In this document: positions 7,523 to 12,351 of the stretch, in pieces
Numbering within the stretch: position 1 is the first letter of the stretch
Layout of the letters: each line of letters begins with the position of its first letter
Assembly: GCF_900111255.1 (NCBI RefSeq)
Contig: NZ_FOGP01000002.1
Span: forward strand, 124,001 to 188,000
Reading direction: 5' to 3'
Length of the DNA stretch: 64,000 nucleotides
DNA from: Parafannyhessea umbonata
Lineage (GTDB): Bacteria > Actinomycetota > Coriobacteriia > Coriobacteriales > Atopobiaceae
Made by a program: the position numbers and the translations under genes
The notes under the pieces: model-generated
Seen by the model: the letters and a program-made list of their open reading frames with translations, nothing else
Told to the model about the DNA's origin: nothing
Database searches by the model: none

Positions 7523-10746
<3,224 letters not shown>

Positions 10747-10747
<1 letters not shown>

Positions 10748-12000
10748 TAGAAGCGCCTCCCCTCGCGAACGTCGATTGCAAGATAGTCCTCGCGGCCCTT
10801 CATGAGGCGCGCGAACGCCTCGAAGAGGTAGGCCGAGTCATGCGGCCCGGGGTTCGCCTCGGGATGGTACTGGACCGAGAACGCGGGGATATCGAGGAAC
10901 TGGATGCCCTCGGGGGTGCCGTCGTTGAGGTTGACGTGCGTGAGACGTACGCGACCGAAGCGCTCGGACTCGACCACGGGGGCAATGCGCTTCTCGCTCC
11001 AGAAGCGAAGATCGGCGTGGTGCTCCGTCTCGCCACCAGAGAGCTCGGGAACGAGCCTGCCGAGGCTCTCGAACACGAGGCCGTAGTTGTGGTTCTGGGC
11101 CGTGATCTCCACCTTGCCGGTCAGAAGGTTCATGACGGGCTCGTTGCCGCCGTGGTGGCCGAACGGAAGCTTCTGGATCTGGGCGCCTGCGGCGATGGAC
11201 ATGAGCTGGTTGCCCAGGCAGATGCCGAAGACCGGAACCTTGCCGAGCACCTCGCGCGCGCAGGCGGCGGTCTGGGTCACCTGCTCGGGGTCGCCGGGGC
11301 CGTTGGAGAAGAACACGCCATCCGGGCTCTCGGAAAGAACGCGGGCGGCAGGCGTGTCCCAAGGCATGACCGTAACCTCGCAGCCGACAGACGCGAGGCC
11401 CTGCTCGATGCCGCGCTTCTCGCCGCAGTCGAGCGCCACGATGTGGAAGCGCTTCTCGCCCTTTGCGGGAACCGTGTAGCTCTGCTTGGTCGATACGTCG
11501 GGGACGAAGTTGTGGGCCGAGATGGGCAGCGACGTGGCTACGCGGGACACCAGGCTCTCGGGGTCGAGGTCGACCGTCGAGATGGCGGCGCGCATCGCGC
11601 CGGCGGAGCGAATCTTGAGCGTGAGGGCGCGGGTGTCGATGCCCTCGATGGCCACGACGCCATTCTGCTTCAGGAGCTCGGGCAGGCTGCCCTCGCTCGT
11701 CCAGTTGCTGGGCTCATGGCACATGTCATGGACGACGAGACCGCGCAGGAAGAGGCCGCCGGACTGCATGACCTCCCTGCAGACGCCGTAGTTTCCCACC
11801 TGGGGATAGGTGAGCGTAACGATCTGCCCGGCGTAGCTGGGGTCGGAGACGATCTCCTGATAGCCTGCCATGGACGTGTTGAAGACGATCTCTCCGAAGG
11901 TCTCGCCCTCCGCGCCGGCGCACCAGCCCGAGAACGTCGACCCGTCCTCAAGGGCCAGAAGCGCGCGCGCGTGCCTGTGGCGTTGTGCGAGTAGATTCAT
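10747..12000 (-). CDS. carA: Carbamoyl-phosphate synthase, small (glutaminase) subunit
   Basis: 417-residue class I glutamine amidotransferase that hydrolyses glutamine and channels ammonia to CarB. The N-terminal CPSase small-chain domain has [11 protein letters not shown] and [17 protein letters not shown]. The GATase nucleophile is in [12 protein letters not shown], and the His-Glu pair is in [14 protein letters not shown]. It is slightly longer than the usual ~380 residues. GGAGG lies 5 nt before the chosen ATG; an ATG four bases upstream is out of frame. The leader contains a terminator 24 nt upstream of the start and other regulatory structure, so transcription into carA is probably attenuated. 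Confidence 0.97.
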
Positions 12001-12023
12001 TCATTCCTCCTTCTGCCCGTGCT

Positions 12024-12054
12024 AAAAAAAGAGAGTCCCCATAAGGGGGCTCTC
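12024..12054 (-). promoter_or_regulatory. Intrinsic terminator in the carA leader (attenuator)
   Basis: On the minus strand GAGAG-CCCC, a CTTAT loop, then GGGG-A-CTCTC is followed by seven T. It is a complete Rho-independent terminator located 24 nt before the carA start codon and co-directional with carAB, far from the gdhA end, which has its own terminator. This position makes it an attenuator rather than a gene-end terminator. Its CCTTAT (12046-12041) can instead pair with ATAAGG of the upstream hairpin. Confidence 0.82.
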
Positions 12055-12081
12055 GAGAAACTCAGCACTTCATTTTGGGCG

Positions 12082-12113
12082 CCTTATCGGTATCTCTGTA
12101 CCGTCCTTAAAGG
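12082..12113 (-). promoter_or_regulatory. PyrR-type RNA binding hairpin candidate upstream of carA
   Basis: Minus strand: CCTT, asymmetric purine-rich bulge TAAGGA, 5-bp upper stem CGGTA/TACCG, hexaloop CAGAGA, then AT and AAGG closing the lower stem. PyrR anti-antiterminator hairpins are known for a CNGNGA hexaloop above a purine-rich internal bulge, and this element has both. Its 3' arm CC-G-ATAAGG can pair with CCTTATGG of the terminator, forming an antiterminator. UMP-PyrR binding would favour termination. That mechanism is inferred; no pyrR gene is in the window. Confidence 0.65.
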
Positions 12114-12115
12114 TT

Positions 12116-12148
12116 GAAATGAATTCTAGAATGAATCGAATTCATTTC
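12116..12148. promoter_or_regulatory. Perfect 11-bp inverted repeat with ARG-box-like half-sites
   Basis: GAAATGAATTC and its exact complement flank an 11-nt spacer that itself contains another TGAAT, so TGAAT-CGA-ATTCA is embedded. ArgR operators have TGAAT/ATTCA half-sites with 4-bp spacing; here the spacing is 3. A regulator site for arginine control of carAB is plausible. A possible -10 (TATAAC, 12173-12168) lies just upstream, but I see no good -35. Confidence 0.5.
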
Positions 12149-12320: not shown

Positions 12321-12351
12321 AAAAAACCGGATGTCCGAGAGGGGCATCCGG
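12321..12351 (-). terminator. gdhA terminator
   Basis: CCGGATG/CATCCGG stem with an 11-nt loop, followed on the minus strand by TTTTTTCTTTT. It lies 29 nt beyond the gdhA stop and separates gdhA from the carA regulatory region. Confidence 0.88.

Follow-up and report, generated by a model that had tools for sequence, protein, structure and literature searches.

The window analysed here is a 64,000-nucleotide stretch of the Parafannyhessea umbonata genome (contig NZ_FOGP01000002.1, positions 124,001 to 188,000), in which carA and carB are encoded on the minus strand behind a leader carrying several putative regulatory features (Table 1). Orthologues of carA were found with identities of up to 79%. 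Since gdhA, the upstream gene, has its own terminator, carAB needs a promoter of its own.

Table 1. Predicted features of the carAB leader and neighbouring genes in the window
Feature	Position	Strand	Basis
-10 box TAGAAT of the carA promoter	12123..12128	-	Consensus scan match, 16-nt spacer; weak -35
PyrR-type hairpin (predicted binding; anti-antiterminator)	12082..12113	-	RF00515 alignment, R1/R2 models, covariation
Antiterminator region	12038..12113	-	Folding during elongation and covariation of complementary arms
Intrinsic terminator, GAGAG.CCCC-UUAU-GGGG.CUCUC and U7	12024..12054	-	Hairpin of -14.9 kcal/mol; homologous leaders
carA Shine-Dalgarno GGAGG, clear of the hairpin	12006..12010	-	Sequence
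carA, glutamine-dependent carbamoyl-phosphate synthase, small subunit	10747..12000	-	ORF of 417 aa; orthologues
carB, large subunit, abutting carA	7523..10747	-	ORF of 1074 aa; name from sequence and context
gdhA terminator (CCGGATG...CATCCGG, T6)	12321..12351	-	Read from sequence

The hairpin at 12113-12082 (CCUUUAAGGACGGUACAGAGAUACCGAUAAGG) consists of a lower stem CCUU/AAGG, a purine-rich bulge UAAGGA, an upper stem CGGUA/UACCG and a hexaloop CAGAGA, just as the initial annotation had described it, and its 3' end lies 81 nt from the carA start codon. The terminator stem at 12054-12031 (GAGAGCCCCCUUAUGGGGACUCUC) contains one C.A mismatch and is followed by U7 at 12030-12024. A full intrinsic terminator before carA, as claimed earlier, is thus present, but 23 nt and not 24 nt separate its U run from the carA ATG (12000). 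A simple terminator scan of the leader reported none, probably owing to the internal mismatch. Also as claimed, the 3' arm of the hairpin, CC-G-AUAAGG (12090-12082), is complementary to CCUUAUGG of the terminator, with one mismatch. Of 200 dinucleotide shuffles of the complete leader, 197 folded less stably than the native sequence (z -2.7).

Running a PyrR covariance model had been suggested as a check, and RF00515 aligned end to end with positions 12117-12025, conserved loop and bulge included, at 31.6 bits (E 0.014). Neither this match nor the element at pyrR in the same genome (42.2 bits) reached the gathering cut-off of 54 bits, and at the curated threshold Rfam gave the leader no match. 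Scores above this cut-off were obtained for just one genome among 150 of Coriobacteriia and for eight among 120 of Actinomycetota, indicating that the RF00515 model is tuned to other phyla, which limits Rfam annotation and not the functional claim. We also used our own models: R1, with 38 positions, built from ten elements (nine carA, one pyrR), and its refined version R2 scored the window hairpin at 56.1 and 50.7 bits, respectively.

A single pyrR gene is present in the 2.06-Mb genome, as the initial reading required. The nearest solved structures to its product are PyrR proteins (E 1e-61; B. subtilis PyrR 1a3c, E 4e-59), and TRIAHE and a second stretch (22 residues) are kept. The gene is itself preceded by the one further element of the genome, at C7:30202-30327, which a simple hairpin pattern run over the whole genome missed owing to its 5-base loop, returning the window copy only. 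The operon order is pyrR-pyrB-pyrC-pyrK-pyrD-pyrF (names from sequence), and its leader likewise ends in a terminator. Because this second copy precedes pyrR-pyrBCKDF, the regulator gene, the operon that it presumably controls itself and carAB as a separate unit appear to have one element in common. In four relatives an apparent in-frame TAG codon of pyrR turned out to be the normal stop, placed a few codons early.

The element is widely conserved in the class. The block CCUUUAA-n-CGGUA-loop-UACCG-nn-AAGG recurs in orthologous carA leaders of Atopobiaceae, in most cases 100-230 nt upstream of the gene. With R1 the hairpin was detected in 123 of the 150 Coriobacteriia genomes scanned, and all 59 loci fetched from its matches (L153-L211) preceded either carA or pyrR. 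As the bulge is of variable length, sequences were aligned with a model of a subset and then under guidance of the model. Among 81 distinct sequences the helices of the hairpin covaried (0.148 as against 0.089 when shuffled; 0 of 500 shuffles as high), with 32 cells showing two-sided changes compared to 12.6 in shuffles and far lower values in controls with slid partners. An element (by R1 or RF00515) was present in 140 of 142 genomes with pyrR and in none of the 8 without (Fisher 9e-12), a co-occurrence that is partly physical, as most elements adjoin pyrR, and that involves pyrR-less genomes which are mostly incomplete. It was found only at pyrR, and not at carA, in a third, contaminated genome of the genus. 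Nine Atopobiaceae carA loci (L279 of genome G048, L026, L029, L031, L034, L036, L044, L070, and L072) had no PyrR element, and G048 keeps one at pyrR; at these carA genes PyrR control would appear to have been lost or replaced.

The class-wide conservation also bears on whether the terminator belongs to some other attenuator, based on a leader peptide or a small-molecule riboswitch, next to a hairpin that resembles a PyrR site by coincidence. The score below the curated RF00515 cut-off would agree with such a view, but other Rfam families gave no convincing score in the leader, and the covariation across the class, the restriction to carA and pyrR and the co-occurrence with pyrR make this explanation scarcely credible.

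Terminators accompany the hairpin well beyond the window. In 83 leaders the hairpin and the gene are 50 nt or more apart, and 71 of these had one by a strict criterion, compared to a mean of 10.7 after dinucleotide shuffling; in most of the others, family f3 excepted, a stem resembling a terminator but followed by a shorter run of U was seen by eye. The arms predicted to pair change together between groups: AUAAGG/CCUUAU in the window, GACAAGG/CCUUUGUC in family f2, CGGCAAG/CUUGCCG in other families, and CGAGAAGG/CCUCUCGG in other Atopobiaceae. Across 68 leaders the 3' arm of the hairpin covaried with the 5' arm of the terminator (-649 as against -537, sd 17), with none of 10,000 permutations as good, and the same test gave 9 of 10,000 for carA leaders alone and 11 of 10,000 for Atopobiaceae carA alone; these permutations ignore the relatedness of the leaders, and families f2 and f3 and the outer families had too few distinct arms for a test of their own. 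The covariation of helices in relatives, on which the initial annotation had staked its reading, was thus borne out for the hairpin and for the arm pairs alike, and the latter supports an antiterminator.

Folding of the leader (ViennaRNA with soft constraints) pointed to a second way of forming this antiterminator. As the transcript extends past 12046, the model leaves the hairpin for a long structure (-21.9 kcal/mol at 12034) in which the segment CCUUA.GGG (12046-12038) is bound by CCU (12113-12111) and UAAGG (12109-12105), and which encloses the helices GGU/GCC and GGCGC/GUGCU. The antiterminator proposed initially, in which CC-G-AUAAGG (12090-12082) pairs with CCUUAUGGG at 12046-12038, is much weaker (-12.4 kcal/mol at the same length and -17.8 for the whole leader). 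Both pairings exclude the hairpin and the terminator, so the claim that binding loop, antiterminator and terminator are mutually exclusive stood, although its 3'-arm antiterminator is not energetically the best one here. Modelling of the window leader favours the bulge pairing, covariation throughout the class points to the 3' arm, and either pairing may be the one used here. The terminator state (-23.6 kcal/mol with the hairpin closed, -26.5 when free) was slightly more stable than the antiterminator, and read-through at carA would therefore have to be kinetic; on these calculated energies switching is plausible. The gap between antiterminator and terminator with closed hairpin, 1.7 kcal/mol here, had a median of 1.4 in 71 leaders, with the antiterminator more stable in 28 of the 71 and the terminator favoured in most carA leaders.

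In nearly all aligned terminator-type leaders a TAnnnT box was located about 8-9 nt upstream of the hairpin CCUUU. Given this conserved -10 box at a fixed distance, transcripts should begin at the base of the hairpin, which for carA places the probable start at about 12116-12114. A start downstream of 12082, raised earlier as an objection, would not agree with this predicted position. A perfect 11-bp inverted repeat, GAAATGAATTC...GAATTCATTTC (12148-12138/12126-12116, minus strand), spans the carA promoter and is a possible operator; at the same place and with equal spacing the O. intestinalis leader has another inverted repeat, GATTTGCAT...ATGCAATTC. Control of initiation through this repeat, perhaps by ArgR, could then dominate and leave PyrR attenuation a minor part. 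The overlap of the repeat with the -10 box and start site, the different repeat in O. intestinalis and an argR gene in the genome (L283) would fit this view, but the repeat is not conserved outside the genus whereas the PyrR element is, and an operator would add to attenuation and not replace it. We thus consider dominant initiation control very unlikely; an ArgR box at the repeat was rejected, as the canonical ARG box spacing was not found despite the presence of argR. Further upstream, the block TGTCAATCTTATAACG at 12182-12167 (minus strand) also occurs in O. intestinalis (L014), with looser versions upstream of carA in L021, L031, L032, and L040, and has one copy only in the genome. The conserved upstream block TGTCNATNNNATAA was present as a single copy in the genome, and hence no regulon was seen.

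The following features of a PyrR attenuator can be recognised at this locus: a CAGAGA-type hexaloop and a purine-rich internal bulge on a stable upper stem, an intrinsic terminator between hairpin and gene, a pyrimidine-synthesis gene downstream, pyrR in the genome, and an antiterminator that is mutually exclusive with hairpin and terminator, with covarying arms and two alternative pairings in this leader. The mark of the mycobacterial type, a hairpin over the Shine-Dalgarno sequence, is absent at the window carA, where GGAGG lies outside the hairpin. By its anatomy the carAB leader belongs with the PyrR attenuators, and the Rfam cut-off is the sole formal criterion on which it falls short. 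We conclude, with a probability of roughly 0.9, that the leader is a PyrR-dependent transcription attenuator causing termination before carA; that PyrR binds, that a nucleotide is the signal and in which direction control runs are inferred. Transcription would begin at the foot of the hairpin. When UMP or UTP is plentiful, nucleotide-bound PyrR would grip the bulge and loop and keep the hairpin closed, blocking the antiterminator, so that the terminator could form and transcription would end short of carA. Under pyrimidine shortage PyrR would be released and bases of the hairpin could pair with the 5' side of the terminator, allowing read-through into carAB. Through the second copy of the element, PyrR would likewise control its own operon.

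The hairpin does not lead to termination everywhere. At all four carA loci examined from family f3 (L184, L186, L188, and L191), which is probably Coriobacteriaceae with Collinsella, the 3' arm reads AAGGAG, an in-frame start codon follows 4-5 nt later and there is no terminator. Compared to the window protein, CarA of these four loci has an N-terminal extension of about 22-49 residues, because the hairpin is immediately followed by the start codon. This ribosome-site type without a terminator is also seen in three carA leaders of Atopobiaceae (L040, L069, and L071), giving seven carA loci with the hairpin over the Shine-Dalgarno sequence. The f3 pyrR leaders that were examined have terminators, and in three f3 genomes (G118, G156, and G077) both carA and pyrR leaders were examined. 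The same hairpin site thus seems to have changed its output between termination and covering of the Shine-Dalgarno sequence. With such close relatives in mind, PyrR might bind the window hairpin and act mainly on translation or RNA stability, as in Mycobacterium, with the terminator secondary. We regard this as very unlikely for the window itself, since 81 nt separate its hairpin from the start codon, GGAGG at 12010-12006 is left untouched, and a terminator with U7, of a kind that is conserved, lies in between.

Two forms of the loop were found. The window genome has the six-base CAGAGA at carA and the five-base CGAGA at pyrR (L001 1500-1537). Five-base loops (CGAGA or CGGGA) were present in 12 of 12 Atopobiaceae pyrR leaders and in all five classifiable f3 pyrR leaders, and six-base loops in f2 and the outer families, while Atopobiaceae carA leaders were mixed (17 five-base, nine six-base). 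This difference in size may matter for PyrR affinity. Taking outputs and loops together, we tentatively suggest, at slightly less than even odds, that the PyrR site is an exchangeable module with two outputs even in single genomes, switched more than once, and that, with two loop forms, one PyrR may differ in its affinity for the two operons and so repress them one after the other.

The initial annotation presented a terminator-based version in this lineage as a contrast to mycobacteria. Such a version is very probably present, but the lineage is Olsenella/Atopobiaceae within the class Coriobacteriia, which is not close to mycobacteria, and terminator-type leaders are not unusual in the wider phylum. 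R2 (E up to 0.1) matched 181 of 247 Actinomycetota genomes, a sample of 247 that includes 22 genomes of Coriobacteriia. All 39 loci taken from 36 families outside Coriobacteriia precede pyrR, and terminator-type leaders occurred in 20 of these 36 families and at about half of the loci, with L248 too weak to count and the terminator of L268 missed by the script; most others have the hairpin beside the start codon. Because about half of the sampled loci outside Coriobacteriia have a terminator, terminator-type PyrR control appears to be common in Actinomycetota, and translational control of the mycobacterial type would be one of two recurrent outputs. PyrR transcription attenuation would thereby extend through the phylum beyond the translational form studied in mycobacteria. 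Among open-access papers, none was found that describes PyrR attenuation for Coriobacteriia, and Rfam annotates almost none of these elements. Our findings give carAB and pyr operons a testable pyrimidine control across a large class of gut Actinomycetota, and the terminator and ribosome-site versions in close relatives allow one to ask how the output of a regulatory RNA can change when the site for its protein is retained.

The closest known counterparts are the pyr attenuators of B. subtilis (RF00515, reviewed in PMC7430163), which share with the window leader an anti-antiterminator hairpin with a purine-rich bulge and CAGAGA loop, an alternative antiterminator and an intrinsic terminator, as well as the location of pyrR within a regulated pyr operon. 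They differ in the two top pairs of the upper stem, which are U-A and A-U in the window (CGGUA/UACCG) as against ARUC/GGYU in the B. subtilis consensus, in that carAB is here a separate unit with its own element, and in that many Atopobiaceae elements, including the pyrR copy of this genome, have the 5-nt CGAGA loop. Moreover, most Coriobacteriia elements fall under the Rfam cut-off, unlike those of B. subtilis. The M. smegmatis system belongs to the same phylum and has the same regulator and a similar hairpin, and its PyrR is described as a translational repressor (Fields and Switzer, 2007, as cited in PMC13328217). Its output is translation, in contrast to the window, where a terminator is present and the Shine-Dalgarno sequence lies free, whereas the seven carA loci with the hairpin over the Shine-Dalgarno sequence correspond to the mycobacterial type.
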